Assembly (NCBI GenBank): GCA_029260295.1
Contig: JAJDDN010000008.1
Span: 496,001 to 560,000 of the forward strand
Source: Phycisphaerales bacterium
Lineage (GTDB): Bacteria > Planctomycetota > Phycisphaerae > Phycisphaerales > UBA1924
Direction: 5' to 3'
DNA length: 64,000 nucleotides
A program made the position numbers and the translations under genes. The notes below the pieces were generated by a model. That model did not search any database and was not told where the DNA came from. It saw only the letters and a program-made list of their open reading frames with translations. Positions within the stretch are counted from its first letter, which is position 1, and the number at the start of each line of letters is the position of its first letter. This document shows positions 22,935 to 57,906 of this stretch, piece after piece.

Positions 22935-24329
22935 TTAGGGCTGTAGTTCTTCTGTCACTTCCGGTACGGAACGAAGATAGACTTTCGATTTGTGACAAGC
23001 AGGCGCACAGCTCCCGCCATTGGTTCGTGCTTCAAAGTTAATATCTAGCATCCAACCACTCGAACCGAACGGGACCGACTCCCGGATATGAGCGGGCCTT
23101 TGGGACGCATGGACTTCATGACACGCCCGACATGTCCTGCCCTTTTCCTTATTTACATGGAGCCAATGAAGATTAAGGTCTCCTTGACGGAACTGTGTCA
23201 ATCCTGAACCGGCTTCATCCATAACAAGATCCGGCTGATGACAACTAAAGCAGAGCTCGTATCTCTCAACACCGAACGGGGCGTAAAACTCGGGCGGATA
23301 CGCTTGGAGTAGAAGGTTCTGATCCTCGCTCGCATGAGGATGATGACACAATGTACACGCACCCTCTCGGATGGGCCCGTGGTGATTGGGATTATTTTCT
23401 AAAAAGGCTTTCATATTGGTGAGCGTCCGGCCATCTTTAGTTACCAACTCTTTATCGTGACAAGTCATGCAAAGATCTGGTTGGAGTTTTTTCTGCAGCT
23501 TTGGAAGCACCGAGAAATGAGGATTGTGACACTCTGTGCACCCCCCCTGATCTTTGGCCGGTGCGTGCACAACCTCGGCAGTTTCAAATAACTCCTCAAA
23601 CCAACCATGGCATTCAAGACATAAGTTGGGTACCGATGCGTTGAGTTGAAACTCAGAATCGGATGCGTGTGGATTGTGGCAAGAGATACAGCCATCTTCC
23701 ATAGGCTTATGAAGATGACGCTTCTCCATTAAAGTGGGCTCGAGTTCTTCATGGCAACTGAGGCACAACCTGTTCGGTCGATCAGTCAAAAGTCCTTTAA
23801 ATGAACTGGAATGAGGCTCATGGCAAACAACACATGCGCCGACCGCGACCGGGCCGTGGATGTACTCATGCTCGGAATAATCATCCATGTGACAATCCAA
23901 ACAAAGTCCTTTCGCCGGGTCCTTTCTGAGCATCGTCGTGTGGTCCGATCCGTGCGGATCATGACAACTCAGACATTCACCATCCGCAACAGGCTTATGA
24001 ATCACGCGATCTAGATGAGTGAGCGTGTGACAATCCGCACACTGCTGATTCCCCGGTTTGGAGAGCACAAAGAGATGTTCCTCGGCTACAGCATACTCGT
24101 GGCATTCGAGACATTTAGAATCAGCAACTGGCTGGTGCATCACCCTCTGGTTCACCAAACTCCCGTGGCAACCGTTAGTAATACAGCTATTCACTTCAGT
24201 TATAGGCTTGCCATCAATCAACTGCGGTGATACCTGGGCTTGAGCAATGCTGCATAAAGCACACACTACAGTCGTCATGACGACTGTAGTTCGGAATGGC
24301 CGGTCATGTAGAATCGTTTTTTTATGCAC
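22935..24329 (-). CDS. Exported multiheme cytochrome c with 13 CXXCH plus two variant heme sites
   Basis: I use the GTG start at 24329, which has AAGGA at a good distance; a signal peptide ends CSIAQAQ. The 464-residue protein contains thirteen canonical CXXCH motifs spaced about 25-40 residues apart. It also has CITNGCH (CX4CH) near the N-terminus and CAPACH (CX3CH) near the C-terminus, which may bind further hemes. Many sites read CxxCHxPH, the doubled-CXXCH cytochrome pattern in which the following His can serve as a distal ligand. No membrane anchor is visible. It likely carries electrons in the periplasm or outer layer. It lies 153 bp downstream of the histidine kinase gene on the same strand. 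Confidence 0.92.
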   Translation of the reverse strand: MHKKTILHDRPFRTTVVMTTVVCALCSIAQAQVSPQLIDGKPITEVNSCITNGCHGSLVNQRVMHQPVADSKCLECHEYAVAEEHLFVLSKPGNQQCADCHTLTHLDRVIHKPVADGECLSCHDPHGSDHTTMLRKDPAKGLCLDCHMDDYSEHEYIHGPVAVGACVVCHEPHSSSFKGLLTDRPNRLCLSCHEELEPTLMEKRHLHKPMEDGCISCHNPHASDSEFQLNASVPNLCLECHGWFEELFETAEVVHAPAKDQGGCTECHNPHFSVLPKLQKKLQPDLCMTCHDKELVTKDGRTLTNMKAFLENNPNHHGPIREGACTLCHHPHASEDQNLLLQAYPPEFYAPFGVERYELCFSCHQPDLVMDEAGSGLTQFRQGDLNLHWLHVNKEKGRTCRACHEVHASQRPAHIRESVPFGSSGWMLDINFEARTNGGSCAPACHKSKVYLRSVPEVTEELQP

Positions 24330-24482
24330 GGCAATCCTTCGTTATCTGGACGGTTTCACGGTTTCAACAAATGACATACACAATCCATGCCAAACTTATC
24401 CCTACTCAGCATACCTGAAACTATGGTATCTTGTTCGAATTCCCACATTCAGGAATAAACGAATCCTGATTTTTACTGGCTG

Positions 24483-26132
24483 TTAGCACGAACACTGAGC
24501 CACGGGGAAAATAACGGAAATCGTTGTCCCCATGCCAACTTTACTTTTGACCTCAATATGGCCACCATTGTGTTGCACGAGGTTGTAACTGATTGAAAGG
24601 CCTAAGCCTGTACCCTGACCGAGCGGCTTGGTCGTATAGAACGGCTCAAAGATTTGATCTAGCTGTTCCTCTGGTATCCCCGTCCCATTGTCTTGAATGG
24701 AAATCGCACAGGAGCTTTCTTCCAGACACTCGGATGTGATCACTACCTGATGAGTTCCTTCATTTGTTGTGGAATCTAGAGCGTTTACGATCAGATTCAC
24801 CAATACTTGCTGAATAGCCAGGGGATGAACAAGGATATTACAACACGGGCTGACAAGCTTTTTTTCCACAGCTACCTGACGATGCCGCCGGTCAAACCTG
24901 ATCATATCGATCGCGGATTGAACAAGATCATCAACCGAGACTGATTGCAGATCAGATTCGACTGGATGAGCAAACTCTTTGAGCTGCCTGACAATCTGAG
25001 TAATCCTTGCCACTTGTTCCCTGAGTTGGGCCGGTGTTTCTCTTTGAAGTCTCGATGGATTCCTCTCAACAAGTTGTATTAACCCATCAATATTGGCGAG
25101 CGGATTTGCGATCTCATGGGCGACTCCAGCCGCCATTCTACCAACGGAAACCATTTTTTCATGCTGCACCAGTCGCTCATGATGGCTCTCCAACTCCTGA
25201 TTCAGCTTTGTGAGCTGCGCTTCGTTTCTTTGCCGTTCGGATACATCCCGGACAACCGCGATGAAAGTTTTCTTTGATCCTTCGTTCATGGAACTGATTG
25301 ATACCTCGATCGGAAACTCTTTGCCATCCCTACGAACTCCAAATCCTGCATGGCTATCTAAAGGTTTCGTAGGTACGGATTCGCATATGTTGTTGCTCGC
25401 AACCTTCCCTTCGAGATTGATTAAAGGCAAAAACCGCTCGACTTGTTCGCCAATCATCTGAGCCGAGCTACACCCGAACATCAATAAAGAGGCTGGGTTT
25501 GCGAGTTCTACCCGGCCAATGTGAGATACTGTAAGCACGCCATCAGCAGCCGCATTGAGCACCGCATGTGTTCGGTTGCGATTATCTTGCAAGTTTCTTG
25601 TTATATGCGTGGTGAAATAGATTGTTAAAAACAAAGTGGTCATCCAGCCCACACCAATCAAACTCTCAGAGACGGATTCGGGCCATTGGCCTCTGAACCA
25701 AAGCGAGCACCCCATCATAAGAACAGCCAGTCCCCATGCTACAAACGGCATGTTCCGCGGCGACTGTAAAAGCAAGCTGGCAAAGATCATGTGCAGCATA
25801 AACAACCCGAGTACCGGGCTGTACAAATCATTAGACAGGCCTGCTAGAGCTGTCAAACAAGCAAGATCTAAAGTTATCTGTGCCCATGCGAACATCCTTT
25901 GAGCATGAAGCAAATCCAGCCAATCTGGTAAAAATCTGAGAATCAGCCAACAAATAACATTGTAGAAGAGAATGAAAATACCAACAGACAAAATCCAAAT
26001 CTCATTGGCAACCCAGTGTGTCCAGAATAAATTTAACCCCGATGCCAAAACCACTACTATTCCCGCTAGCCATCGCTGGCTAATAAACCAGCGTAACTCA
26101 CTGAGTAATGGTGCATTGGGGTCCTGCCTCAT
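24483..26132 (-). CDS. Membrane sensor histidine kinase with PAS domain (NtrB-like)
   Basis: This 549-residue protein has about six hydrophobic helices in residues 18-175, then a PAS domain (about 185-300, starting THAVLNAAADGVLTV and ending FIAVVRDVSERQ). The HisKA domain has phospho-acceptor His339 in AAGVAHEIANPLANIDG, and a complete HATPase follows with N box VNLIVNALDS, G1 DNGTGIPEE, F box FEPFYTTK and G2 GTGLGLSIS. The HEIANP box is typical of kinases that pair with NtrC-family regulators, one of which is encoded at 27372-28724. Its start overlaps the stop of the HAMP protein gene (ATGA), so the two are coupled. Confidence 0.93.
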   Translation of the reverse strand: MRQDPNAPLLSELRWFISQRWLAGIVVVLASGLNLFWTHWVANEIWILSVGIFILFYNVICWLILRFLPDWLDLLHAQRMFAWAQITLDLACLTALAGLSNDLYSPVLGLFMLHMIFASLLLQSPRNMPFVAWGLAVLMMGCSLWFRGQWPESVSESLIGVGWMTTLFLTIYFTTHITRNLQDNRNRTHAVLNAAADGVLTVSHIGRVELANPASLLMFGCSSAQMIGEQVERFLPLINLEGKVASNNICESVPTKPLDSHAGFGVRRDGKEFPIEVSISSMNEGSKKTFIAVVRDVSERQRNEAQLTKLNQELESHHERLVQHEKMVSVGRMAAGVAHEIANPLANIDGLIQLVERNPSRLQRETPAQLREQVARITQIVRQLKEFAHPVESDLQSVSVDDLVQSAIDMIRFDRRHRQVAVEKKLVSPCCNILVHPLAIQQVLVNLIVNALDSTTNEGTHQVVITSECLEESSCAISIQDNGTGIPEEQLDQIFEPFYTTKPLGQGTGLGLSISYNLVQHNGGHIEVKSKVGMGTTISVIFPVAQCSC

Positions 26133-27193
26133 AGGCTGGAAACCTTGTTTTGATCTTCTGAATCATGACTTCCTAAAGCCGACATTTGTGTAGAACGCTT
26201 TAAGTCAAGCATTTTAACACCCTTGATGTAGTCAACTAAGACAACCCGTCTAACCTGAGTAAGTGATGTGACCGTGTCGTTCATCTGATGGAGCGTCTCG
26301 TGAATTAGTTCAAGCTGTTTGCTGCTTGCCTCATTGTATCCCGAAGTCTTCGTCACCAATCTCAGCTGCAGTTCAATTATTGCGATTGCATTGTTGAGCT
26401 CGTGATTCAGAGTCCGAGCAACCTGGTGCAATGTTTCGATCTTTCGCTGCTCATTGGCTTCAAGGTGTTCAGCCAAGGTGTTAAATCCATCGGCAAGCTC
26501 GGCAAACTCATCCTTTGGACCGACCTCCACACGATAGTGATACTCCTCACGAGCAAGATGCCGACTCGCTTCTAGCAGTTGCTCAACAGGCTTGAGTACA
26601 TAGGAAGCCGATCGGATGAGGAGTAAAATCGAGACATTAATAAGCACTACAGAGATAACCGATAAGCTAATTGCCATGATTCGAAATCTTGAGGTCACCC
26701 TTTGCTGCCCAAGCATCATCCGTTCATTGGCACGAGCAGAATAGCCAAAGATAGCCTGTCGCATTTGGTCGAGTGAATCAAAAACCACCGCAGAACTCTC
26801 GAGTTGGATGCCAGCAGAATCCATCAAAACTATCTGAATTGCCCTATCGAGATCGGACAACGCGGATGTCATTTGGCCAATCGACAGTTTCCCATCAACC
26901 TCGGTCGAGTTGCGATTTTCAAGCCCGTTGACAACACTTTGAAAATCTTCATATGTTTCCTGGAGCCAATCTGAATCAACGGGGGAAAGTTGTGACCAAT
27001 GAAGAAACTCTGTTTCAATCAATGCAACGGACTCGACAAGCCGGCTCGATACAGCAGTCCCAGTTGAAACTTCCGAACTGATCTCCTCTAGATCACCAAG
27101 CACTCCCTTCATAAGAAGCACGGATGTCAATGCTGTTGCGAGCATAAGCGTTGTGAGCACCGAGAGCATTATGAGAAGTTTGCGTCTGAGCAT
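26129..27193 (-). CDS. HAMP-domain membrane sensor with H-box but no kinase ATPase domain
   Basis: The 354-residue protein has TM1 at about 7-29, an extracytoplasmic helical domain of about 140 residues, TM2 at about 171-194 and a HAMP domain at about 195-248 (ending DEFAELADGFNTLAEHL). A HisKA-like helix carries His264 in VARTLNHELNNAIAIIE. After that only about 90 helical residues follow, with no N, G1, F or G2 box, so it cannot bind ATP as a kinase. It may form heterodimers with the kinase encoded by the next, translationally coupled gene, or act as a phosphotransfer or input subunit. A sigma-54 promoter at 27222-27237 and a purine-rich AAAGGATAGAG Shine-Dalgarno precede the ATG. Confidence 0.88.
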   Translation of the reverse strand: MLRRKLLIMLSVLTTLMLATALTSVLLMKGVLGDLEEISSEVSTGTAVSSRLVESVALIETEFLHWSQLSPVDSDWLQETYEDFQSVVNGLENRNSTEVDGKLSIGQMTSALSDLDRAIQIVLMDSAGIQLESSAVVFDSLDQMRQAIFGYSARANERMMLGQQRVTSRFRIMAISLSVISVVLINVSILLLIRSASYVLKPVEQLLEASRHLAREEYHYRVEVGPKDEFAELADGFNTLAEHLEANEQRKIETLHQVARTLNHELNNAIAIIELQLRLVTKTSGYNEASSKQLELIHETLHQMNDTVTSLTQVRRVVLVDYIKGVKMLDLKRSTQMSALGSHDSEDQNKVSSL

Positions 27194-27221
27194 ACCGAAC
27201 TCTATCCTTTATCAATTATCC

Positions 27222-27237
27222 AGCAACTTCCATACCA
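27222..27237 (-). promoter_or_regulatory. Sigma-54 (-24/-12) promoter for the HAMP sensor/kinase operon
   Basis: On the minus strand this reads TGGTATGGAAGTTGCT. Against the consensus TGGCACG-N4-TTGCW it keeps GG-N10-GC spacing exactly, and differs only by two C-to-T changes. The transcription start would be near 27211, about 18 bases before the ATG, just enough to hold the visible ribosome binding site. Confidence 0.8.
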
Positions 27238-27371
27238 ACAGTCAAACAGTTACGCATGAAGATCGATTCGGGCCAATGACGCATACCAAGCACCAATCGG
27301 CCTCATGAGGAAAGAACCTTCTTGTAAATGAGAAGCACATATTCTTCCTTGAGACAAAGCAACAACACCGC

Positions 27372-28724
27372 TTAGTCAATAGTCTTGGGAATGTCCAACT
27401 CTTCACACTTCCGATACAGGCTCGATACACCAATACCAAGCTGCTTGGCCGTTTCTGCCTTGTCATGGTGATGCCTTCGCAAGCTGTAGATAATGTGCTG
27501 GCGTTCAAACTGGCGGATAGACTCACGCAGGTCTTCGCCCGAATCATCATCTGCATAATCAACCGTAAATGGTATATCCCTGAGGCAAATCTCTCGACCT
27601 TCTGCAAAGATAATCGCCCTTTCAATCACATTCTCAAGTTCACGGATATTTCCTCTCCATGGGTGAGACAACAGAGCACGGATTGCACCATTGGTAATCC
27701 CGCTGACCTGCTTATTCATCTGCCTTGAGTACAAATCAATAAAGTGGTGCACAAGAATAGGAATATCCGCCTTTCGTGCCGAAAGTGTAGGGAGTTGAAG
27801 TTTAACTACATCTAAACGATACAACAAGTCCTCGCGAAACTCGCCCTCTTCAACAAGTTTGTTCAGATCCTGATTTGATGCGGCAATTACCCGCACATCA
27901 ATCGGCCTAGCCCGTGTATCTCCTACAGGAACAACCATGCGTTCCTCGAGCACTCGAAGCAGAGAACTCTGGGCGTTCTTTGGGAGTGATGAGATTTCAT
28001 CGAGGAACACGGTCCCACCGTTAGCACTTTCAAAGAAGCCGACCCGATCGCGGATCGCACCGGTAAAGGCCCCCTTGCAATGCCCAAAGAGCTCGGATTC
28101 AATAAGCCCATCCGGAATTGCACCACAGTTTACAGGGATAAAAGGTTTATTGTGGGTAATACCGTTAAAGTGTATCGCCTTAGCAAACAGCTCCTTTCCG
28201 GTCCCTGATGCACCGACTATTAAAACATTGCTCTTTACAGTGGACAGCTTTTGAACCACCTCAAAGAGCTTAATCATGTTTGGCGATTCACTCACTAAAT
28301 TATGGAAAGTGCTTCCCGCAGCAAGTTGCTTGGCCATTATCTCACGATCCCGAGAAACTTCACTGAACTCGATCGCACGCTTGATTTTTAACAGTAGATC
28401 ATCAAACTGGACCGGCTTGAGCAGGTAATCCCATGCGCCAATATGAATTGCGGACACAGCGTCTTCCACAGTTCCGTAAGCGGTCATCATAATAACCGGC
28501 GTTTGCGGGGCAAGCTGCTTAATATGCGCAAGCAGGCTCATCCCGTCCATCTCAGGCATGCGTACATCCGACAAAACAACATCCACGGATCGCTCAAGTA
28601 AAATCTCATGGGCGACGCGTCCATTCTCTGCTTGAATTGGCTCATACCCCTCGTCTTCAAGGAGACTCGCCATCGATTCGCGAAGAATCTTCTCGTCATC
28701 AACTATTAAAACAACTTTGCTCAT
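27372..28724 (-). CDS. Sigma-54-dependent response regulator, NtrC family
   Basis: The 450-residue regulator has a receiver domain (1-120) with phospho-acceptor Asp53 in VVLSDVRMPEMDG and a lysine in LLKPVQFDD. The AAA+ domain carries Walker A GASGTGKE (171-178), the sigma-54-contacting GAFTGA loop (218-223) and Walker B GGTVFLDEISSLP. A Fis-type helix-turn-helix ends it (AETAKQLGIGVSSLYRKCEEL). It should activate RNA polymerase-sigma-54 at promoters such as those at 27222, 36299 and 37600. The gene is the last of the barrel/lipoprotein/cytochrome operon; its ATG overlaps the preceding cytochrome stop by 4 bp. Confidence 0.96.
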   Translation of the reverse strand: MSKVVLIVDDEKILRESMASLLEDEGYEPIQAENGRVAHEILLERSVDVVLSDVRMPEMDGMSLLAHIKQLAPQTPVIMMTAYGTVEDAVSAIHIGAWDYLLKPVQFDDLLLKIKRAIEFSEVSRDREIMAKQLAAGSTFHNLVSESPNMIKLFEVVQKLSTVKSNVLIVGASGTGKELFAKAIHFNGITHNKPFIPVNCGAIPDGLIESELFGHCKGAFTGAIRDRVGFFESANGGTVFLDEISSLPKNAQSSLLRVLEERMVVPVGDTRARPIDVRVIAASNQDLNKLVEEGEFREDLLYRLDVVKLQLPTLSARKADIPILVHHFIDLYSRQMNKQVSGITNGAIRALLSHPWRGNIRELENVIERAIIFAEGREICLRDIPFTVDYADDDSGEDLRESIRQFERQHIIYSLRRHHHDKAETAKQLGIGVSSLYRKCEELDIPKTID

Positions 28725-30349
28725 TGCGAATAACCCTCAGCAGAATGATCTTCCCCATGACAAGTCAGATAGCACTGGCCTGCGAACCGACCAAGTGATT
28801 CGTACTTGAGAAATCCAGTGTCGGGATCAGGAAATACGATTGATGTATCAAAATTAATCAGATGGCTATTGTTTGTCCGGTTGCCCTGCGAAGAAGAAAC
28901 TCCATGAGAATCATGGCACGCAGCACACGAAATATCTTCATCCAAATGATCACTGTGAGGGAATGAACGATCTGATAGAATCCCATTGTCACCTTCTCTC
29001 CAGTGGCATGTATAACAAAGTGCGTAAGCGGCCGCGCTCTCGGGAGTATAATCCGCAGTCTCATATCGAGCAATTAGAACTGGCTCTTCGTTGGATCCAT
29101 GAACCCCATTGGGCCCTGAGCTACCAGCCAAGAAGCTGGTATCCGAGCCATGACAATCGCTGCAGTACATCACGCTACTTTCTGACCACCCAGGTTTGAG
29201 ACTCGGAACATCTGTGTTCTGACCTGGCCCCAGAACCGGATGAGAAGAAACCGCTGAAAATGCAAACTCAAGCCGAGTGTTGTTCTGGACAATTTGCCGA
29301 GGAATCACCAGCGAACTTATCGCTGTCTGATCGCTGTGACATTTAAAGCACACCTCGTACTCCGCAGCAGCTATCTCAACAGGCGAACCCGAAGCATTTA
29401 TCCCGTCAATAGCCCCGAAGTTTGGATGAATCGCAGGCGCACTCGCCGTTCCTAACATCATTGTGTGAGAATCATGACAATCGGCACAGGTTACATGATC
29501 AGGTATCGGGTCAACTGGGTCAACCAAGCTATTCGTGTCATGAACCGACATCTTTGCTAAATCCGATCCAATATTGGCTGCCCCCATATGCGATCCGTCA
29601 TGGCATGTCAGACAGCTTGAGGTAATTCGATCCCCTTTGAGCAAATATGGCCCACTCGGAGCACTATGCGTTTGATGACAACTCCTGCAGTCTTGGTGCT
29701 CAACGATAGTTGTATTTGTTATCTGATGACAAGTTCGACACAATGCCGAGTTGTCATTGCTAAGAACGAGGAACTCTCCAAAGCTATTGTCATGGGCGTT
29801 ATGACATGTGGTGCATTGAAGTTCACGGTTCACATCAAGATGGACATCAGATGGAAGCCCTGCGGGATCGATTAAATGCGGATCCTTCGAGACTAATAGA
29901 GAGTCGTAAGAAAATGAAATCGGATGATCATCGGCCAGATCGGTTCCAAGATTTGAGGCACCCGGCGGAAGAGTAGTGATCCCACCCGCCATTTGGATGA
30001 TCTGATCCTGAGAGATCACACTCCCAACCGCAATCGTCCCGTCATGACATGAAAGACACATTTTCGATGAACCTGTTGGCTGACCCGGTTTTGCATCGAG
30101 TGAGTTGCTTGAATACACGGAGTAAGCCGCGACGGGGAGATACCTATTCCAGAGCGGTTGAATCGGCGAAGCGTTATGTGGCGTATGACAAAATATACAG
30201 ATCTGCTCTTCAGTACTGGCATGAAGAATGCCAGGCCCCCCGGCAGAAAGATTATGAGGGGTATCAACAATGCTTTGGCCCTGGCCATTTGCAAAGCTAC
30301 CGACAACTGCGGTAAATAGGAGGGCCAAGTGTACATATTTGCAAATCAT
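28721..30349 (-). CDS. Exported multiheme cytochrome c, 11 CXXCH plus one CX3CH site
   Basis: This 542-residue protein has a signal peptide (MICKYVHLALLFTAVVGSFANGQ). The N-terminal ~220 residues repeat the layout of the tetraheme protein at 35558-36208: HNLSAGG, CIFCHTPHNA, PLWNR, CLSCHDGTIA, NLGTDLADDHPISF, CTTCHNAH, CRTCHQ. Seven more CXXCH sites follow, and a CYLTCH site lies near the C-terminus. It therefore looks like a fusion of the small tetraheme module with a longer multiheme region, plausibly a connector between periplasmic and surface cytochromes. Its start overlaps the upstream NHL lipoprotein stop by 4 bp and its stop overlaps the ntrC-type gene. Confidence 0.92.
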   Translation of the reverse strand: MICKYVHLALLFTAVVGSFANGQGQSIVDTPHNLSAGGPGILHASTEEQICIFCHTPHNASPIQPLWNRYLPVAAYSVYSSNSLDAKPGQPTGSSKMCLSCHDGTIAVGSVISQDQIIQMAGGITTLPPGASNLGTDLADDHPISFSYDSLLVSKDPHLIDPAGLPSDVHLDVNRELQCTTCHNAHDNSFGEFLVLSNDNSALCRTCHQITNTTIVEHQDCRSCHQTHSAPSGPYLLKGDRITSSCLTCHDGSHMGAANIGSDLAKMSVHDTNSLVDPVDPIPDHVTCADCHDSHTMMLGTASAPAIHPNFGAIDGINASGSPVEIAAAEYEVCFKCHSDQTAISSLVIPRQIVQNNTRLEFAFSAVSSHPVLGPGQNTDVPSLKPGWSESSVMYCSDCHGSDTSFLAGSSGPNGVHGSNEEPVLIARYETADYTPESAAAYALCYTCHWREGDNGILSDRSFPHSDHLDEDISCAACHDSHGVSSSQGNRTNNSHLINFDTSIVFPDPDTGFLKYESLGRFAGQCYLTCHGEDHSAEGYSQ

Positions 30350-31428
30350 TGCTGTCCCTCCGGCAAGTACTTGAATACCTGGAGTCTCTGATTATAGGAG
30401 TCCGCTATCCAAATATGGTTGTCATGATCAATATGTATGCCTGTCGGCAGCCAGAACTGGCCCGGCCCATGGCCTTCTTGACCAAAGTTGAGCAAGAAGC
30501 CTCCATCTCTATCAAAAATCTGCACAGATTCAAAGTGTGAATCAATTACATAGATATGCCCATCCGAATCCATTGCAACACCTTTCGGATGAGAAAAATA
30601 CCCAGGCAGGTCACCTTTTTCACCAATCTGAAGGACAGGATTCAAATCGGCATCGAATACCTGAACTCTGAAATTGAGCGAATCACTGACAATAAGTGAG
30701 CCGTCGTTCCCGAATGCTAAATTGGTTGGAAAGTTGAACTCCCCAGGCCCGGTCCCCCGCTGCCCAACTCGTTCAATCAGTTCACCATCAAATGAAAGAA
30801 CTACGACTTGATGAGCTCCAACATCGGCAACGAAGATCCTGTGTGTATCGGGATCAATAGCAAGCCCGCTTGGTTTCTCAAGGACTCCGCCACCCAATAT
30901 CCCCAAGTAGCTTGAATCTGAATCAAATGCATGGAGTACGCCTCCAGCTGAATCTGATACCAACAAGCGATCCATCGCGTCAAAAACTACCCCGACCGGC
31001 TGAGAAAGAATCCCATCGATCGGATCTGGAATCCATTGCTCGTAGGCCCGAGTCTTTAAGTTGAAGACATGCACCGCCTGCGCATTGGAATCGCACACAA
31101 ATACTCGGCCGTTGCCATCGGAACACACTCCGTACGGGGTGAGCATCCCTTGGTCAGACCCCTTACCAAAGATTGATTCTGTAAATGATTTGGTAAACGA
31201 CTTCGCCGGCTTGAGATCCTTGTCGGTGCTCAAGGAACCAACATACTCAATACGAGCCTCAGCCGGCGGTTGAGGCCAATACAAAGGTGATTCCAAAGGC
31301 TCAAACAAAACTCCCTTAGGCTGAGAACACCCCACCAATGCGAAACCAAAAGCAAGGATAACTAATCCAGTTGCCACTCTCCAAAGCTCCGCAAACAAAA
31401 ATGCCTTGCGATTGATTGTTCTCATCAT
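30346..31428 (-). CDS. NHL-repeat beta-propeller lipoprotein
   Basis: I start at one of two adjacent ATGs (31428/31425, MMRTINRKAF), since the longer frame to 31551 would overlap the barrel gene by 88 bp. The ~360-residue product has a lipoprotein signal ending FALVGC, then WPQPPAEARIEYVGSL, and about six NHL blades with recurring patterns such as PYGVCSDGNGRVFVCD, PSGLAIDPDTHRIFVAD, PKGVAMDSDGHIYVID and PTGIHIDHDNHIWIAD. It should be anchored in the outer membrane as a protein-interaction or scaffold propeller. It is paralogous to the lipoprotein at 34150-35424 and translationally coupled to the following cytochrome. Confidence 0.88.
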   Translation of the reverse strand: MMRTINRKAFLFAELWRVATGLVILAFGFALVGCSQPKGVLFEPLESPLYWPQPPAEARIEYVGSLSTDKDLKPAKSFTKSFTESIFGKGSDQGMLTPYGVCSDGNGRVFVCDSNAQAVHVFNLKTRAYEQWIPDPIDGILSQPVGVVFDAMDRLLVSDSAGGVLHAFDSDSSYLGILGGGVLEKPSGLAIDPDTHRIFVADVGAHQVVVLSFDGELIERVGQRGTGPGEFNFPTNLAFGNDGSLIVSDSLNFRVQVFDADLNPVLQIGEKGDLPGYFSHPKGVAMDSDGHIYVIDSHFESVQIFDRDGGFLLNFGQEGHGPGQFWLPTGIHIDHDNHIWIADSYNQRLQVFKYLPEGQQ

Positions 31429-31463
31429 TTCAATATACACGATAGACTTCCTTGTAGTCACGC

Positions 31464-33497
31464 TCAGAACTCCCTTTTGGCACCAAATGTGAATGTCTGT
31501 GAGGTGCTTTCTCGAGAATCGCCGGTCAAAAACGAATGTCGAAGCGAGCAATACAACAATGTTTGACGATGCCTCCAGTTCAGATCAAAGACCACCTCAT
31601 ACGCGTCTGAGTTTGATCCTCCGCTGTCTTCTTCACGCCGGTATGTACCCACCAGAGTACTCCGAAGCTGGTCTCCGTGCTTAGCCGTCCATCGAGCGGT
31701 CAGGTTGGCGATCTGTGTCTGCAGATCCTCCTGGGTCCGATCCGTGTTCAAGTAGTAGGCGCTGATCGAAACCGCGCTCCGGTTGCTGATTCGATTGGTG
31801 TATCTGCCTTCGAGCCTGGTAGAGTTGAACGGAGATAGCGTGCTGTCATGGATCTGATGCTCGGCTGTCATCGAAATCTTTCCAATGTCATAATCCAAAC
31901 CGAAAATAAAGTCATTAAAATCGTTCCCTGTAAATGGGACAAACCCGATCGTCGATCGATCCTGTGATTGATCTCGATACCGCAGATACGGGCTCAACCC
32001 CTTGAGAGGCCCGTCAACGATCCGGTATCTGACCGTAGCTCCAAAGCCCAATGTATCAGTCGTATTCTCAGGCTCGGGACCGATCTGGTATGTAATCAAT
32101 ACCGTCTGACCCGCAGAGATACTCCCGCCAAGCGACCTCCGTACTTCTATGCTGTCACTCAGAATCCGCAAGGTGTAGTCCGCCCCTTCTAGATAAGTGA
32201 CTATCCCCGCCTGGTCAGTCACAGTTATTGAACTCGCGACAATATTTCTTCGGCTAAGAACTACAAAACCCGACGCCCCAAAGGTATGCGATTCATCGGT
32301 AATAAAGATTGACGAGCCCCGCTCGCCGTCGTCCTGATGGTTGTAGTTCATATTGACGGAGGCATTGAATAATCCATGAGGAACGATTTTTTGATACTTC
32401 GTTCCGAGATCAAAGAAGTATTGCCTGCTCTCAAAGGACCCCTCACTGAGCATAAAAATGCTTGACCCGACCTGCCCTGTTGTCGTCAAGCTATCAAAGA
32501 GATCATGCCGAAAGCTTGCGACACCCCGATGATTTGTTTGCTCGCTTAAACTCCTTGTTTGCTGATCGAACATGTATGTGTATTTCGTTTCAAAGTCCTT
32601 GGAGTGTTCTAGCCGAAGGGTTTCATCGAGCCGGACACGGTTTACCGGAAAGTTGCCTGTTTCTTTGAACAAGCGAAAAGAGGACCGGATGCTGTGCTGT
32701 GAGGTTGTCCCGAAGTCATAGGTATGATTCACAAACACATCATGGCGAATAAAGCTGTTGGCCGTCAAAATCTGCCCGGATTCATCGATATTTGACAAGG
32801 TATAGTCCCACCAGAACCGGTGCCCGCCCAGAGGCTTAACCCGCCCTTGCCACGCGAATGAATCTTGGACGATATCTGAATCCGTACCGAAAAAACGACC
32901 GGTTTGAATCTGCTCTCTGTGAAAAATCTGAAACTGGTTCGACATAAAGTCAGCATTCAGCAAGAGCCTCGCTCCATGCTCGGTCGAAATACTATCCAGT
33001 GATTCGGAGAACTGGCGAGACAGAAGCACTTGGGACCTTCGCGAATACAGAGTCAGGGGCGTATTGCTCCGCTGAAGTAATACAGCGCTGGCATCGTACT
33101 CACTGATCGTTTCCGAGGTCCTGCTAGAATCAACCGAGTCGCTGCTATCAATATCTTCTTGTGCGAGTCGCAAACTCAAACTCAAATCCAGCTTAAGTAA
33201 GTTTGGATCCCCTATAAAGCCTTCCCCGCCAATAGTGAAAGTTTCTCGGAATATATTCTCTGTAGTCTTTGTGTTTACACCCAGCGCGTCGGTGCTGTCG
33301 TTGAGCCGCGATCTCCAGTATGCCTCGATGGACACATGAAGACTCTCAAGCTCAAATGCCTTGAGTTTTTCACGCTGCCCAACGATGATCGGCCCACCAT
33401 CTTGAGCAGTTGTTACAGTACAAATGGAGTTAAAACACACGAATATCGCCGTGAGCAGCATTCTGAAACGCATTCTATCAGAACGCTCAAGGCTCAT
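31464..33497 (-). CDS. Large outer-membrane beta-barrel protein of the cytochrome operon
   Basis: I choose the ATG at 33497 (MSLERSDRMRFRML) because AGGAAGGGG lies 9 bases upstream; the frame runs on to 33524. The 677-residue product has a signal peptide ending TVTTAQ, many alternating-hydrophobicity beta strands throughout, and a C-terminal Phe (GAKREF), the BAM-recognition signature. A middle segment (AGIVTYLEGADYTLRIL...GGSISAGQTVLITYQ) is a small beta-sandwich seen in barrels associated with NHL proteins and cytochromes. It is a candidate porin through which multiheme cytochromes pass electrons or filaments are exported, analogous in role but not visibly homologous to MtrB/PioB. It overlaps the pentaheme gene by 11 bp. 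Confidence 0.8.
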   Translation of the reverse strand: MSLERSDRMRFRMLLTAIFVCFNSICTVTTAQDGGPIIVGQREKLKAFELESLHVSIEAYWRSRLNDSTDALGVNTKTTENIFRETFTIGGEGFIGDPNLLKLDLSLSLRLAQEDIDSSDSVDSSRTSETISEYDASAVLLQRSNTPLTLYSRRSQVLLSRQFSESLDSISTEHGARLLLNADFMSNQFQIFHREQIQTGRFFGTDSDIVQDSFAWQGRVKPLGGHRFWWDYTLSNIDESGQILTANSFIRHDVFVNHTYDFGTTSQHSIRSSFRLFKETGNFPVNRVRLDETLRLEHSKDFETKYTYMFDQQTRSLSEQTNHRGVASFRHDLFDSLTTTGQVGSSIFMLSEGSFESRQYFFDLGTKYQKIVPHGLFNASVNMNYNHQDDGERGSSIFITDESHTFGASGFVVLSRRNIVASSITVTDQAGIVTYLEGADYTLRILSDSIEVRRSLGGSISAGQTVLITYQIGPEPENTTDTLGFGATVRYRIVDGPLKGLSPYLRYRDQSQDRSTIGFVPFTGNDFNDFIFGLDYDIGKISMTAEHQIHDSTLSPFNSTRLEGRYTNRISNRSAVSISAYYLNTDRTQEDLQTQIANLTARWTAKHGDQLRSTLVGTYRREEDSGGSNSDAYEVVFDLNWRHRQTLLYCSLRHSFLTGDSRESTSQTFTFGAKREF

Positions 33498-34137
33498 TCG
33501 TGTCTTCCCCTTCCTGATAATCACCAGAAACGGTTTCTTTGCTTTCGTCTACTGTAATCAATGATTGATTGATCAGAAAGAATGGAACCTCCCCACCATG
33601 ACCAGAGTGACAATCTGTGCAACTGCGTTCAAGATCAGAATGAGACGGGATCAAACTTTCTGTATCAAACTCATGACATTGCAAGCACATCTCAGGTCCA
33701 GTCGCCCTGAGCAGGTTTGAAAGAGCTGAAATATGAGGATTATGACACATCAAACACGCATTACCGGTCACTGCCCCGTGCATGTATGCGTATTGCTCCT
33801 TTACATCCGTATGGCATCCCGAGCACATACTCGAATCATCCATACCCAAGAGCATGTTGCTCAGATCGGAGTGGCATTCAAAGCAAGCCTCATCCGTGTA
33901 TGGCTTGTGCTCAGAATAAGTCGAACTCTTGGCGATCGATTGCCCATACAGTATCTCGGGAGCATTGGGATCCGGGACACCATCAAATATCTTGCTTAGA
34001 AACTCATAGTTATTCTCAACACTGCACCCACCCCACCACAATAAAATCAATAACGATGCAAAGATCCCACCCACCAAGCAGACCGCCTGCCCCATGAATC
34101 CTTTCATTGCCCATTTCTTGTCGAATATCCGATCCAT
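33487..34137 (-). CDS. Membrane-anchored or lipoprotein pentaheme cytochrome c
   Basis: The 216-residue protein starts at 34137 after AAGGAGATCG. One N-terminal hydrophobic segment (QAVCLVGGIFASLLILLWWGGCSV) ends in a cysteine that could be lipidated, though WGGC is an imperfect lipobox; an uncleaved anchor is the alternative. Five CXXCH motifs follow: CFECH, CSGCH, CLMCHNPH, CLQCH and CTDCH. The gene sits between the two partners most likely to interact with it, the NHL lipoprotein upstream (12 bp gap) and the barrel downstream (11 bp overlap). It may be the heme module that docks at the barrel. Confidence 0.88.
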   Translation of the reverse strand: MDRIFDKKWAMKGFMGQAVCLVGGIFASLLILLWWGGCSVENNYEFLSKIFDGVPDPNAPEILYGQSIAKSSTYSEHKPYTDEACFECHSDLSNMLLGMDDSSMCSGCHTDVKEQYAYMHGAVTGNACLMCHNPHISALSNLLRATGPEMCLQCHEFDTESLIPSHSDLERSCTDCHSGHGGEVPFFLINQSLITVDESKETVSGDYQEGEDTNEP

Positions 34138-34149
34138 CAGACGATCTCC

Positions 34150-35424
34150 TTACGGGGAGCTCGGCTCTTGCGTCTTAACCTCTGGCTCATCAGGCGAGCT
34201 TTGCACCTGAGGAATATCATTGGTTAATGTATTGACTTCATTCTCTTTCCGGACACCCGACGGCACCTCAGACATCGTTGGTGCGAGATCATCAACACTC
34301 ATCCCCTCACGGAGGTTTCCAACCGCAAAGACCCCAACCTTGTTTGGGCCAAACTGGTTGGTGACAAGTACGATCTGGTCCACATCAAACGCTGGATGGA
34401 TATATTCCCTGAAAATTTCAATATCGTGCTCTGTAGTTGTTACTCCAGCCGGGAGATTCATTGCGCCAGGATGTGCACCGCCCGATCCAAAGAACATCAG
34501 GACTTCGCCTTCATCATTGAACATTTGGACATTATCAAAAGCGGCATCAACGACATAAGCAATCCCATTCTCGTCCACTGACAAGTGCTTTGGACGAACA
34601 AACGAACCCGCTGTATCCCCTATCGTCCCCACCGCTTGAACCAAGTTGCCCTCAGGATCAAATTTTTGCAATCGGCATTTGATCACATCACAGACATACA
34701 CATACCCCTCAGCATCAACATCAATACCAAGCGGCCGGACAAACTGCCCGTCTTCCCCGCCAGGACCACCGATCGTCCGCAGCTGAGTCCCATCATACCG
34801 ATCCATTACCAGAACGCTTTGCGTTCCAAAGTCACTCACATACAACTCGTTTTCATGGACAGCAATCCCAACAGGCTTAAACCCTTCGTGCCCGAATGAT
34901 TGCACATGCCGTTCTTTGGCATCAAAGACAAACACCACGCCCCTTACGGCATCAGCAACATACTTCATCCCATCTGACGAGACTGCAATATCTGTCGGCT
35001 GAGCCATCCCGCCCAGTCCGCTAGTGGTTAAAATCCTGGTCTGCTTTTTCTTCAGGTCTAGAACCACAAGCCCTGGGTTGCGAATATCACAGACATAGAT
35101 CTTCCCGTCCCACATCTCAACCCCGTAGGGCTTATTTATAGGAAGAATGCTCGAATCCTCCCCGTACAGCAGGTCTTCGAATTTACTCCGTTTCAGATCG
35201 ATGTCTGAACTGTAACGATACGAAACGAGAAACTGAACATGAGGCTCAGCCGGGAACTGGGGCCAGAACGAGTACTGCCGATCGGATTGATTCTCTATCC
35301 TGTCAGGAGTCGATGCACACCCGTTGATGATCGGGCTGATTAATAGCAATAAACCCAAGCTAACGAACTGAGAAAGAACTCGGGACCAATACAGTACTGC
35401 CGGAGCCTGCTTTAGAGTGTTCAT
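34150..35424 (-). CDS. NHL-repeat beta-propeller lipoprotein
   Basis: This 424-residue protein has a lipoprotein signal ending LISPIINGC, then WPQFPAEPHVQFLVSY, closely parallel to the start of the other NHL lipoprotein (30346-31428). NHL blades recur as PYGVEMWDGKIYVCD, PTDIAVSSDGMKYVAD, PVGIAVHENELYVSD, PLGIDVDAEGYVYVCD and PKHLSVDENGIAYVVD. The C-terminal ~60 residues are Pro/Glu/Ser-rich and look disordered. It likely sits at the outer membrane. It is the first gene after the terminator at 35508-35544 and heads the run down to the NtrC-type regulator. I could not see a convincing promoter directly upstream. Confidence 0.88.
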   Translation of the reverse strand: MNTLKQAPAVLYWSRVLSQFVSLGLLLLISPIINGCASTPDRIENQSDRQYSFWPQFPAEPHVQFLVSYRYSSDIDLKRSKFEDLLYGEDSSILPINKPYGVEMWDGKIYVCDIRNPGLVVLDLKKKQTRILTTSGLGGMAQPTDIAVSSDGMKYVADAVRGVVFVFDAKERHVQSFGHEGFKPVGIAVHENELYVSDFGTQSVLVMDRYDGTQLRTIGGPGGEDGQFVRPLGIDVDAEGYVYVCDVIKCRLQKFDPEGNLVQAVGTIGDTAGSFVRPKHLSVDENGIAYVVDAAFDNVQMFNDEGEVLMFFGSGGAHPGAMNLPAGVTTTEHDIEIFREYIHPAFDVDQIVLVTNQFGPNKVGVFAVGNLREGMSVDDLAPTMSEVPSGVRKENEVNTLTNDIPQVQSSPDEPEVKTQEPSSP

Positions 35425-35507
35425 TTTTTGCCTCTGAAATTTTGGAATGCCCAGCGATCTGACTAGACACCGTGATTATATCATATCTGTACTTAAACAG
35501 AAGAAAA

Positions 35508-35544
35508 TGCCGCCGCCGGACCAAAAACCGATCCGACGACAGCA
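35508..35544 (-). terminator. Terminator (or attenuator) after the tetraheme cytochrome gene
   Basis: Reading leftward, a 13-bp stem (TGCTGTCGTCGGA with TCCGGCGGCGGCA, three G-U wobbles that pair only in the minus-strand RNA) encloses an 11-base loop and is followed by TTTTCTTCT. That the wobbles work only on this strand fits a leftward terminator. It would let the first gene be made in excess over the downstream barrel and lipoprotein genes. Confidence 0.75.
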
Positions 35545-35557
35545 TTCAGAGATGCAT

Positions 35558-36208
35558 TTACTTGATATGGCAGCTCAGGCACAAGGCACTGGCATTGTTT
35601 GTCATACGAAGTTGATGGTCATACCCTTTGTAGTGAGGTGTGTGGCATGTCATGCAACCAACGACATAGTCGAGGGTTCCGTCAACATTCATCTCACGGA
35701 GTTTCAACTCGCCATTTGGGCCGAGTTTGTGACTGGCATTGGCTGGTTGCCATTTCGAGGAGCCTTCTTCAAGATAGACGGCTTCACGACCAACGGGGTG
35801 GTCATCGGTCAAGTCTGTACCGATGTTTTCACTACCGTTGATAAAGATGGAACCAACCGAACCACCGAATGCATCAAGGGCAACTGTCCCGTCATGGCAA
35901 CCCATGCAGAGACGGCTGAGCTTGTCGAAAGCGGCATCGCCATCGTCAGGTCCAGCATCGTGTGTATTGCCTTCGTACATTGTGTACACAGCCGTGGTCA
36001 ATGTATGGTTCCACAACCATCCAACAGGCTCTCCTGTGACTTCACTTACAGCATTGTGGGGTGTATGGCATGGCTTACAGATTTCGCCACCAGCCCATCC
36101 CGTTCCGCTGAAGTCGTGTGCCCCACCAACCATTGAGGTTTGACCCAATGCTGGTGTTGCGAAGAGCGCCGCCAATGTTCCCGAAAGAAGCAGTGAGCGG
36201 AGTTTCAT
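35558..36208 (-). CDS. Small exported tetraheme cytochrome c, OmcE-like candidate
   Basis: The start at 36208 (MKLRSLLLSGTL) has AGGAG upstream. The 216-residue precursor has a signal peptide ending TPALGQ and a mature part of about 190 residues with exactly four CXXCH motifs: CKPCHTPHNA, CMGCHDGTVA, CMTCHTPH and CLSCH. Between them come LWNH and IGTDLTDDHPVG. At least eight further histidines are available as distal ligands, enough for four bis-His hemes. Size, heme number and the paired-CXXCH layout resemble filament-forming OmcE-type cytochromes; this is inference from pattern, not an alignment. It has its own sigma-54 promoter and terminator, as expected for an abundant structural subunit. 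Confidence 0.88.
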   Translation of the reverse strand: MKLRSLLLSGTLAALFATPALGQTSMVGGAHDFSGTGWAGGEICKPCHTPHNAVSEVTGEPVGWLWNHTLTTAVYTMYEGNTHDAGPDDGDAAFDKLSRLCMGCHDGTVALDAFGGSVGSIFINGSENIGTDLTDDHPVGREAVYLEEGSSKWQPANASHKLGPNGELKLREMNVDGTLDYVVGCMTCHTPHYKGYDHQLRMTNNASALCLSCHIK

Positions 36209-36298
36209 AATTATTCTCCTATTATTGTTTTCCTGGCAACACTTTAGTGAGGAGACCATCTCCAACTCCGCATTGCCTGTCTTGTACATCGGTATACA

Positions 36299-36314
36299 TG
36301 CAAATCAGATACCA
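36299..36314 (-). promoter_or_regulatory. Sigma-54 (-24/-12) promoter for the tetraheme cytochrome
   Basis: The minus strand reads TGGTATCTGATTTGCA, with GG-N10-GC spacing and the TTGCA -12 element intact. The predicted start is near 36288, about 80 bases before the ATG at 36208. It shares the TGGTAT -24 element with the promoter at 27222-27237. Confidence 0.72.
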
Positions 36315-36414
36315 TTCCTAGACTTCCCAAATACCCCTATTACACGCCAGAATCGCCTATCAAATCCGCTTCACATACCAACATTCCACAATCTAAGAAC
36401 TCACTACCGATAAA

Positions 36415-36427
36415 GTTCTCGAAGAAC
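36415..36427. promoter_or_regulatory. Palindromic candidate activator-binding site
   Basis: GTTCT-CGA-AGAAC is a perfect 5-bp inverted repeat, with a third half-site (AGAAC) at 36396-36400. It lies about 100-115 bp upstream of the -24 element at 36299-36314, a usual enhancer distance for NtrC-type activators. Half-sites of the same sequence also occur upstream of the other two sigma-54 promoters. Confidence 0.4.
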
Positions 36428-36440
36428 GGATGATCCGGAT

Positions 36441-37421
36441 ATGTTGCCCCTGGCAAGCGAAAGATCAGTTATTGGAGAGATCCACCCAAAGTATGGCTAC
36501 CCAAGGCCGATGTGCTTCCGAGAGCGAAAGGAACACGCCTTGGAAAAGCATTACTTCAAATCAGTCACCACAAATCGATTCCAAATTCACAAATCAACCT
36601 TCGTAGCCGCTCTGCTCATGTTTTCTGTCCATTCAGTTGCTGGCGAAATCAAAAAATTTGAATCCATATCAGAATCACGCTCTGAAGAACTAGCCGTTAA
36701 TTCTCAGAGCAGAAACCCTACTCACAGTGCGTTCAATCTGAACAACAATCAGTGCGTGGATTGTCATGAATATCAAATCGAGTTCTCACATCCTGTTGGG
36801 GTCTACCCACCCGCATCAATGTCTGTGCCCGCTAATTTTCCACTCATCGATGGGAAAGTGGTATGTATAACCTGCCACTTACCGTACGAAAATGATCATT
36901 CAACAGGAAAATCAGCCCAAACCGAGCAGGTATCCTTTTCAGTACACGGGACAGAAATATGCACACAATGCCATGACCCAAACGGATTCTCGGTCCAAGA
37001 CATGCACTCCAGGACGACTAGGAAGGCACATGTAGACCCGAGCACAGACCGCTATGCAAGAACCCGTCAAACACGCTCGTCAGCCCCTACAGCTCAATGG
37101 CTGGACTCAGAGAGCGATTCCTGCATGACATGCCACGACGGCGCAATGGCAAGCAGCTCGGGGTCTGACATTGGATCATCGCACAGTTCAATCTATAATG
37201 AGCAACTGAGTAGCGATCACCCAATCGGGCGGTACCAACTCTCAAACCCATCTGAGTCCGATGGAACACTCAAACCATCCTCAATGATCGATTCACGGAT
37301 CCGGCTCATCAACAATCATGTCGGATGCAACTCGTGCCACAGCGTGTATTCGCCACAAAATGATCTTCTTGTCATGTCCAACCAAGGCAGCCGGCTTTGC
37401 TTGGAATGCCATGAGTACTGA
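36441..37421 (+). CDS. Exported hexaheme cytochrome c
   Basis: The 326-residue frame from 36441 carries six CXXCH motifs: CVDCH, CITCH, CTQCH, CMTCHDGA, CNSCH and CLECH. The C-terminal half (CHDG...SSDHPIGRYQLSNP...CNSCH...CLECH) is related to the tetraheme and 11-heme cytochromes on the opposite strand. The N-terminus is probably mis-set: the secretion signal (KSTFVAALLMFSVHSVAGE) lies about 50 residues in. A TTG at 36540 preceded by AAAGGAA would give a normal-length signal peptide. Transcription is divergent from the tetraheme gene. It probably belongs to the same electron-transfer system. Confidence 0.85.
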   Translation: MLPLASERSVIGEIHPKYGYPRPMCFRERKEHALEKHYFKSVTTNRFQIHKSTFVAALLMFSVHSVAGEIKKFESISESRSEELAVNSQSRNPTHSAFNLNNNQCVDCHEYQIEFSHPVGVYPPASMSVPANFPLIDGKVVCITCHLPYENDHSTGKSAQTEQVSFSVHGTEICTQCHDPNGFSVQDMHSRTTRKAHVDPSTDRYARTRQTRSSAPTAQWLDSESDSCMTCHDGAMASSSGSDIGSSHSSIYNEQLSSDHPIGRYQLSNPSESDGTLKPSSMIDSRIRLINNHVGCNSCHSVYSPQNDLLVMSNQGSRLCLECHEY

Positions 37422-37599: not shown

Positions 37600-37615
37600 T
37601 GGCACCGATCTTGCA
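37600..37615 (+). promoter_or_regulatory. Near-consensus sigma-54 (-24/-12) promoter for the ccmC operon
   Basis: TGGCACCGATCTTGCA matches the TGGCACG-N4-TTGCW consensus at every position but one, with correct GG-N10-GC spacing. The start would be near 37626, leaving about 75 bases of leader before the ATG at 37702. Half-sites GTTCT (37460) and AGAAC (37486) lie 110-140 bp upstream. Confidence 0.88.
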
Positions 37616-37701
37616 GAACATCAATCGCCATGCTCATGCATGAGGCTTACCAATCCTCAGCACAAAGAGCATCGGCTCAATGATTGAACTGGAGATCTAG
37701 A

Positions 37702-56183: not shown

Positions 56184-57906
<1,723 letters not shown>

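Follow-up and report, generated by a model that had tools for sequence, protein, structure and literature searches.

We analysed a 64,000-nucleotide stretch of DNA from a Phycisphaerales bacterium (Planctomycetota; GenBank assembly GCA_029260295.1, contig JAJDDN010000008.1, positions 496,001 to 560,000 of the forward strand), called the window below and numbered from its first letter, in which genes for multiheme cytochromes, two NHL beta-propellers and an outer-membrane barrel lie together at 22935-37421. The locus is a real, conserved system resembling the Uet (undecaheme electron transfer) cluster, and its subunits are relatives of OmcE, the nanowire cytochrome of Geobacter sulfurreducens. 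Its features, with the six cassette genes first, are as follows.

35558-36208, reverse strand: tetraheme c-type cytochrome of 216 residues with a signal-peptide-like start, of the OmcE superfamily; proposed filament subunit (UetA position).
35505-35547, reverse strand: hairpin directly 3' of the tetraheme stop codon; proposed terminator or attenuator.
34150-35424, reverse strand: NHL1 beta-propeller (PF01436, NHL), a probable lipoprotein.
33487-34137, reverse strand: MtrA-like pentaheme cytochrome with five CXXCH motifs, a probable lipoprotein; proposed barrel plug.
31464-33524, reverse strand: outer-membrane beta-barrel of 686 residues from GTG or 677 from the ATG at 33497, with a C-terminal Phe.
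30346-31551, reverse strand: NHL2 beta-propeller (PF01436, five stretches), a probable lipoprotein; the reading frame opens at TTG and the likely start, by eye, is near 31428.
28721-30349, reverse strand: undecaheme (11-heme) cytochrome in the UetJ position, with an OmcE module at about residues 11-212 and a 7-heme C-terminal part; proposed junction of conduit and filament.
27372-28724, reverse strand: NtrC-type sigma-54 response regulator (PF00072, PF00158, PF02954).
26129-27193, reverse strand: HAMP/HisKA-like sensor protein (PF00672; PF00512 below the cut-off).
24483-26132, reverse strand: PAS sensor histidine kinase (PF02518, PF00512, PF13426).
22935-24329, reverse strand: 13-heme DmsE/MtrA-like cytochrome (PF09699; TIGR03508 below the cut-off); proposed to carry electrons through the periplasm to or from the conduit.
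36441-37421, forward strand: divergently transcribed hexaheme cytochrome with six CXXCH motifs and a weak OmcE-like part.

An earlier, sequence-only reading had described this locus as a candidate extracellular electron-transfer system, and its parts, heme counts, barrel and coordinates were all found as placed in the list of open reading frames (ORFs), the CXXCH counts and the PF01436 matches; its 677-residue barrel ending in Phe corresponds to the ATG start given above. The ORFs at 35558-36289, 33487-34137, 28721-30349 and 22935-24329 on the reverse strand hold 4, 5, 11 and 13 CXXCH motifs, and that at 36441-37421 on the forward strand holds 6. The longest tetraheme ORF is 35558-36289, and a TAGGAG seven bases upstream of 36208 marks the latter as the likely start, while both NHL proteins begin with a lipobox-like stretch (both features judged by eye). 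In Pfam the cytochromes fall into the doubled-CXXCH and related families. Chance or overcalled CXXCH motifs can be ruled out as the source of these counts, both by the recurrence of the six cassette genes together in other genomes and by a whole-genome control, in which the CXXCH DNA pattern occurred 219 times on the reverse strand and 114 times on the forward strand against 42 and 51 for the reversed pattern.

The tetraheme protein carries the clearest link to nanowires. Searched as a single sequence against the PDB it matched 9yuq (E=5.7e-15), an entry of 16 chains named 'Putative multiheme cytochrome c', and 7tfs, which is OmcE (E=8.4e-14), both over nearly the full length and as the sole matches at E<=1. 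A profile built from 42 tetrahemes gave nine PDB matches, led by 7tfs at E=1.5e-45 (positions 14-214 of 214) and by 9yuq at E=2.4e-42, again full-length, with a short match to OmcS third at 3e-9. The 13-heme neighbour served as a control in phmmer: 7tfs was not reported for it at E<=1, 9yuq reached 0.21, and its best match was chain A of 6r2q (E=7.4e-13), which rules out that the tetraheme protein is merely a generic doubled-CXXCH protein. The hexaheme protein gave weak phmmer matches to 9yuq (E=2.7e-5) and 7tfs (E=2.3e-4). Exactly eight histidines are invariant in 16 of 16 planctomycete tetrahemes, namely those of the four CXXCH motifs together with H31, H51, H137 and H192, and every one of them aligns with a histidine of OmcE. 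The proposal that the tetraheme protein is OmcE-like is therefore borne out, as 7tfs and 9yuq are its only full-length PDB matches and the same eight candidate heme ligands are present. Among planctomycete genomes 23 of 392 match the tetraheme, some solely through modules in larger cytochromes.

The distal histidines were followed further in 86 tetraheme ORFs from the window and from the loci numbered L032 to L131, which reduce to 84 distinct sequences since two pairs represent the same contig twice. All four are kept in 79 of the 84, and the five exceptions (L070:6668-7282, L075:3505-4125, L077:12516-13133, L108:5791-6369 and L111:11764-12390) lose H51 alone, the distal histidine next to heme 1; two of these H51-less proteins, those of L070 and L077, share their locus with an intact copy. 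In OmcS filaments the role of interfacial ligand is played by the histidine two residues after a CXXCH. In OmcE one heme is ligated by a histidine of the adjacent subunit (PMC12307469, PMC12954529), and this is heme 2 according to PMC12203936; these papers, like the others cited here by PMC number, are drawn on in excerpt. By this analogy H51 would be the most likely inter-subunit heme ligand of the tetraheme protein.

A second copy of the same module, noticed in the sequence-only reading, indeed occupies the start of the 11-heme protein (38% identity to the tetraheme, E=1.3e-19). A profile of the window protein and 64 of 70 length-filtered relatives, six being omitted by choice, aligns with 7tfs over positions 11-212 (E=1e-46), and the remainder of this profile gives weaker matches to other multiheme cytochromes, best to 6qvm (E=3.3e-8). 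In the AlphaFold2 model of the 11-heme protein, with a mean predicted local distance difference test (pLDDT) score of 89.1, the OmcE fold is seen in the module: the sole significant Foldseek match in the PDB is 7tfs (E=1.6e-7, TM-score 0.70 by target length, root-mean-square deviation 4.3 over 204 columns at 37% identity), the other six matches having E>=4.3. Only residues 57-72 of the model fall below a pLDDT of 50. This stretch includes H58, which corresponds to tetraheme H51, and such a result in a monomer model would be expected if the stretch needs a partner. Near the C-terminus, in a strand region of the model, a CX3CH at residues 526-531 has its Cys, Cys and His invariant in 65 of 65 aligned rows and is a possible twelfth site of heme binding. 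In a quick tree the 42 tetrahemes form one group (support 64) and 33 modules, drawn from the 65 11-heme proteins, another (support 98), with 7tfs and 9yuq between them. Taken together, these comparisons place the tetraheme protein, OmcE and the 11-heme module in one superfamily by homology, and the CXXCH and distal histidine set of OmcE is present both in the tetraheme protein and in the first 40% of the 11-heme protein.

The 11-heme protein is the best conserved among the alignments made in this analysis. Its 65-row tree places the window with Phycisphaerae, and phylum labels are largely clustered, needing 18 changes where shuffled labels need 35.3. One record labelled Leptolyngbya (Cyanobacteriota; L060) has its 11-heme protein among those of planctomycetes and is probably mislabelled. 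Of 397 genomes in the window's class, 123 match the 11-heme profile at E<=0.001, weak matches counted, and two of the four genomes listed for its genus have a match.

This conservation extends to the whole cassette. The 11-heme alignment found at least 552 confirmed stretches in GTDB species genomes, of which the best 80 were kept as loci; all 80 hold the 11-heme ORF, with 11 CXXCH motifs in 79 and 10 in one. Linkage was counted, with detection on all ORFs, in the 38 loci that extend 9 kb or more to either side: tetraheme, NHL2 and barrel were each found in 37 and NHL1 in all 38, and 35 loci hold the four together, the misses being the tetraheme in L124, NHL2 in L131 and the barrel in L113. 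By label the 35 complete loci belong to Planctomycetota (16), Verrucomicrobiota (3), Thermodesulfobacteriota (3) and Bacteroidota (2), with one each in Pseudomonadota, Nitrospirota, Ignavibacteriota, Calditrichota and Zixiibacteriota, a single doubtful Cyanobacteriota and five unplaced, so that they span nine credibly named phyla. Carriers include apparent isolates by strain name, such as Desulforhopalus sp. IMCC35007 (L114). Of the 70 loci with sufficient DNA, 66 have NHL2 immediately upstream of the 11-heme gene, and in 55 of 57 the distance between NHL1 and the tetraheme is 0.6-2.2 kb.

Gene order is less constant. The full order tetraheme-NHL1-pentaheme-barrel-NHL2-11-heme appears in L032, L033, L034 and L040 of 20 planctomycete stretches; the rest mostly show a partial or rearranged cassette, and L047-L051 have none of the barrel or propeller genes, the tetraheme being called only in L047-L050. 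Among the 80 loci, whose gene order was listed with a simpler gene caller that misses some genes (for example in L071), the blocks tetraheme-NHL1-MHC5-barrel, MHC5 standing for the multiheme gene in the pentaheme position, and NHL2-11-heme are exchanged or turned in several loci of Bacteroidota, Calditrichota and KSB1 (for example L077, L092, L102, L123 and L125). Across phyla, one cassette holds the genes of both OmcE-type proteins, of two propellers and of a large barrel.

The barrel and the pentaheme cytochrome are the parts from which a route across the outer membrane would be built. The barrel was modelled and aligned with 60 relatives (61 rows), and its AlphaFold2 model (mean pLDDT 90.8) has 17 long strands followed by a small beta domain inserted at residues 406-481 and then 11 further strands, about 28 by our own count, with no plug domain; a C-terminal Phe is present in 52 of the 61 rows. 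Its sequence has no Pfam or NCBIfam match, and its profile found none among PDB sequences (best E=0.2). Among the best 50 of 817 Foldseek rows are LptD, TonB receptors and ushers such as FimD, with MtrB (6r2q_B) at rank 23, and their TM-scores by query of 0.23-0.38 (MtrB 0.32, no better than LptD) describe a large barrel without a specific relative. For the pentaheme cytochrome, a profile of 10 sequences matches chain A of 6r2q, which is MtrA, at E=1.5e-27, the next match being at 5.5e-9. An MHC5-like gene, the counterpart of the pentaheme, lies within 2.3 kb of the barrel in 57 of 71 barrel loci, encoding five hemes in 41 of these and from 4 to 19 in the others; the other 14 show none nearby, several of them by a contig end. 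In L068, L071, L103, L105, L120 and L130 (Pseudomonadota and Desulfobacula-type) NHL1 directly precedes the barrel with no MtrA-like gene between. These observations support, without proving, a conduit made of the pentaheme cytochrome and the barrel, as far as homology and the predicted model can indicate. Of the expectation that this is a conduit-type locus outside the usual phyla, the joint presence of cytochromes, propellers and barrel over several phyla stands; the equivalence of the barrel to a known conduit porin does not, for LptD, FimD, TonB receptors and MtrB match it about equally poorly and no family claims it.

Expression signals may set the tetraheme gene apart. The hairpin at 35505-35547 has 19-20 pairs and a predicted RNA folding energy of -29.9 kcal/mol (z=-7.06; none of 200 shuffles did as well), and we propose that it is a terminator or attenuator separating the tetraheme from the downstream genes. 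Among relatives the gap between tetraheme and NHL1 has a median of 120 bases (31 pairs), and the medians for the four most frequent pairs downstream, NHL1-MHC5, MHC5-barrel, barrel-NHL2 and NHL2-11-heme, range from -4 to 13.5; four loci whose pentaheme is longer likewise have a wide space between it and NHL1 (median 104). The hairpins of relatives have a median of -18.2 after the tetraheme against -9.4 to -15.1 after the other cassette genes, a comparison that was not used because the other stretches are mostly coding, and only the hairpin of the window was counted. Hairpin and wide gap fit a structural subunit made in excess. Sigma-54-like sites occur at 36299-36314 on the reverse strand (two mismatches, 91-106 bases upstream of the tetraheme) and at 37600-37615 on the forward strand (exact, upstream of the gene at 37684); the total of 32 is not above chance (shuffle mean 34.3), nor is that of sigma-70-like sites (15 against 17.2), and these sites were not used as evidence. 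The sensor-kinase and NtrC-type regulator block at 24483-28724, recognised by its Pfam domains and not mentioned in the sequence-only reading, is part of the locus, and this two-component system probably regulates it.

We propose a model for the locus that most reasonably fits these observations and that we regard as probable, in which an outer-membrane electron conduit is joined to an OmcE-type filament, with the 11-heme protein as the junction. The MtrA-like pentaheme lipoprotein would sit inside the barrel of about 28 strands and carry electrons across the outer membrane, exchanging them on the periplasmic side with the 13-heme cytochrome. At the cell surface, the 7-heme part of the 11-heme protein would face the conduit while its OmcE module would act as a built-in first subunit, from which the tetraheme protein would polymerise, a neighbouring subunit supplying the histidine ligand (most likely H51) of one heme at each interface. 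The propeller lipoproteins would each be dedicated to the assembly or anchoring of one cytochrome, NHL1 to that of the tetraheme and NHL2 to that of the 11-heme protein. As for the direction of electron flow, the genome has three matches to heme-copper oxidases and, above the cut-off, one of NapC/NirT type, so that the system may oxidise iron or an electrode or may instead reduce extracellular acceptors. A bolder version, which we put forward only tentatively, makes the 11-heme protein a genetically encoded nanowire seed docked on the barrel by its 7-heme part, lets each propeller serve its neighbouring cytochrome, and casts the H51-less paralogues of L070 and L077 as end caps unable to ligate a next subunit.

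Several points weigh against this model and temper our confidence in it. We infer polymerisation from sequence, conservation and linkage, an OmcE fold of the tetraheme protein itself is predicted from its homology, and the role of cytochrome filaments is disputed even in Geobacter, as the excerpts of PMC13194489 and PMC11077965 indicate. The position of 7tfs and 9yuq in the quick tree, together with a support of only 64, leaves it unproven that the tetraheme is an ortholog or the closest relative of OmcE. The loss of H51 amounts to about four independent cases, given that L070 and L075 pair in the tree. The match of the C-terminal part of the 11-heme protein to 6qvm shows that CXXCH repeats inflate scores. 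A barrel homologous to MtrB is ruled out by the absent sequence match and by fold scores that are only generic, and the MtrA-like gene is not a constant core part, because it varies from 4 to 19 hemes and is missing between NHL1 and barrel in six loci. Finally, the 80 loci are the best 11-heme matches rather than a random sample, and 36 of them are from Planctomycetota.

In one alternative the barrel and propellers are mainly a machine for export and assembly of the filament, comparable to that of the osc operon, and electrons enter the wire by another way. It overlaps with the proposed model rather than excluding it, and we consider it rather unlikely. The near constancy of barrel, NHL1, NHL2 and tetraheme beside an MtrA-like cytochrome that varies or is missing fits such a machine, and in the osc precedent factors for folding, secretion and morphology of OmcS are proposed (PMC13194489, in excerpt); the MHC5-like gene near the barrel nonetheless has five hemes in 41 of 57 loci, and the MtrA-like character of the pentaheme family fits a conduit.

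A porin-cytochrome conduit without any filament, its tetraheme being a monomeric soluble or surface terminal cytochrome (reductase, oxidase or shuttle) of OmcE fold, is in our judgement unlikely. OmcE-like modules are also found inside larger cytochromes, in the 11-heme protein and weakly in the hexaheme protein, so that the fold need not mean a filament, and tetrahemes occur without the surrounding cassette in L047, L048, L049 and L050; the polymerisation of the tetraheme is, moreover, a sequence-based inference. Such a monomer would nevertheless leave unexplained why every distal histidine including H51 is kept in 79 of the 84 tetrahemes, why a strong hairpin and a wider gap follow its gene and why it is paired near-constantly with a propeller, and one of its two full-length PDB relatives (7tfs) is a solved nanowire. 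A respiratory system of the DmsE kind for a soluble or metal substrate, unrelated to nanowires, is very improbable, for although the 13- and 5-heme proteins score below the cut-off against DmsE-type families and match MtrA, no catalytic oxidoreductase domain is present in the called genes of 22935-45757 (five of which, besides the barrel, have no Pfam match), and the OmcE-type parts are among the most constant members of the cassette.

Further genes surround the cassette. Adjoining genes at 38754-39551, 40430-42139 and 42136-43311, likewise absent from the sequence-only reading, carry cytochrome c assembly and ResB domains. Near the cassette and outside it, 52980-56204 on the reverse strand encodes a protein of 1074 residues with 11 CXXCH motifs, LVIVD repeats and a C-terminal dockerin domain. 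Elsewhere in the same genome, at G000:C8:735394-739265, a second cluster of doubled-CXXCH cytochromes encloses a NapC/NirT-type match at 737337-737684.

If the model of a conduit joined to a filament is true, with the UetA counterpart as wire subunit and the UetJ counterpart as its base, the anchoring and wiring of a filament to the outer membrane become testable in one six-gene cassette. We also suggest the constant 11-heme protein with its OmcE module as a genomic marker of wire-type electron transfer, more specific than lone cytochrome matches.

Compared with the OmcE nanowire of G. sulfurreducens (7tfs), the tetraheme protein shares full-length homology, four CXXCH motifs and the same four distal histidines; it differs in forming a separate branch of the quick tree, in being tied to a conserved barrel, propeller and 11-heme cassette, and in that its polymerisation is a prediction. 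With MtrCAB and other porin-cytochrome systems (6r2q) the locus shares an MtrA-like cytochrome beside a large plug-less barrel, but the pentaheme has 5 hemes where MtrA has 10, and the barrel is no MtrB homologue by sequence, with a generic fold match only. The osc operon, which accompanies OmcS, likewise combines a nanowire cytochrome with proposed assembly factors, a likeness drawn from description only, and it includes propeller and channel parts. Shen et al. 2025 are said to have described OscD as a propeller and OscH as a prolyl isomerase. The excerpt of PMC13194489 proposes factors for folding (OscH), secretion (OscE-G) and morphology (OscD), and OmcS itself is phylogenetically unrelated to OmcE according to that of PMC12203936.

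Other published loci touch single aspects of this one, as far as the cited excerpts go. A Geoalkalibacter locus holds an OmcE homologue and two NHL proteins (PMC12016550), and Desulfovibrio ferrophilus has clusters with NHL proteins (PMC9769857). Porin-cytochrome complexes in Planctomycetota are mentioned (PMC13264449, PMC10732223), with nanowires stated as not investigated in the former; OmcE, nanowire and planctomycete co-occur in PMC13264449 and PMC11434368; and the undecaheme OmhA of Carboxydothermus appears in the excerpt of PMC12203936 without a link to OmcE. In the literature searched we found nothing that links Uet to OmcE, or OmcE with NHL proteins and a barrel, though prior mention in Baquero et al. 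2023 or Wang et al. 2022 is possible; nor did we find a description of the tetraheme or the 11-heme N-terminus as OmcE-type, of the cassette shared by several phyla as a wire system, or of the proposed built-in wire base.

The closest likeness is to the Uet cluster itself. As excerpted from PMC10734462, uetA-J occurs in Tenderiales and six Gallionella genomes and comprises the undecaheme UetJ, the extracellular tetraheme UetA, the barrel UetC (in 4 of the 6 Gallionella), the NHL proteins UetHI, the peptidyl-prolyl isomerase (PPIase) UetB and the trihemes UetDEG. Linked undecaheme, tetraheme, barrel and NHL genes are shared, a likeness in gene composition that the sequence-only reading had missed, and the locus here differs in adding an MtrA-like pentaheme, regulators and a 13-heme cytochrome. 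No PPIase Pfam domain was found in the 47 called ORFs of the window and no ORF of at least 40 residues with three CXXCH motifs in the window, the rest of the genome not having been searched for either, and because these PPIase and triheme genes are missing we name the locus Uet-like, not Uet. Three gammaproteobacterial loci retrieved with the 11-heme query (L103, L120 and L130) have the tetraheme, NHL, barrel, NHL and 11-heme genes. This locus links two subjects that we found unconnected in the literature searched: the Geobacter nanowire cytochrome OmcE, and the Uet cluster that is known from bacteria oxidising electrodes or iron.

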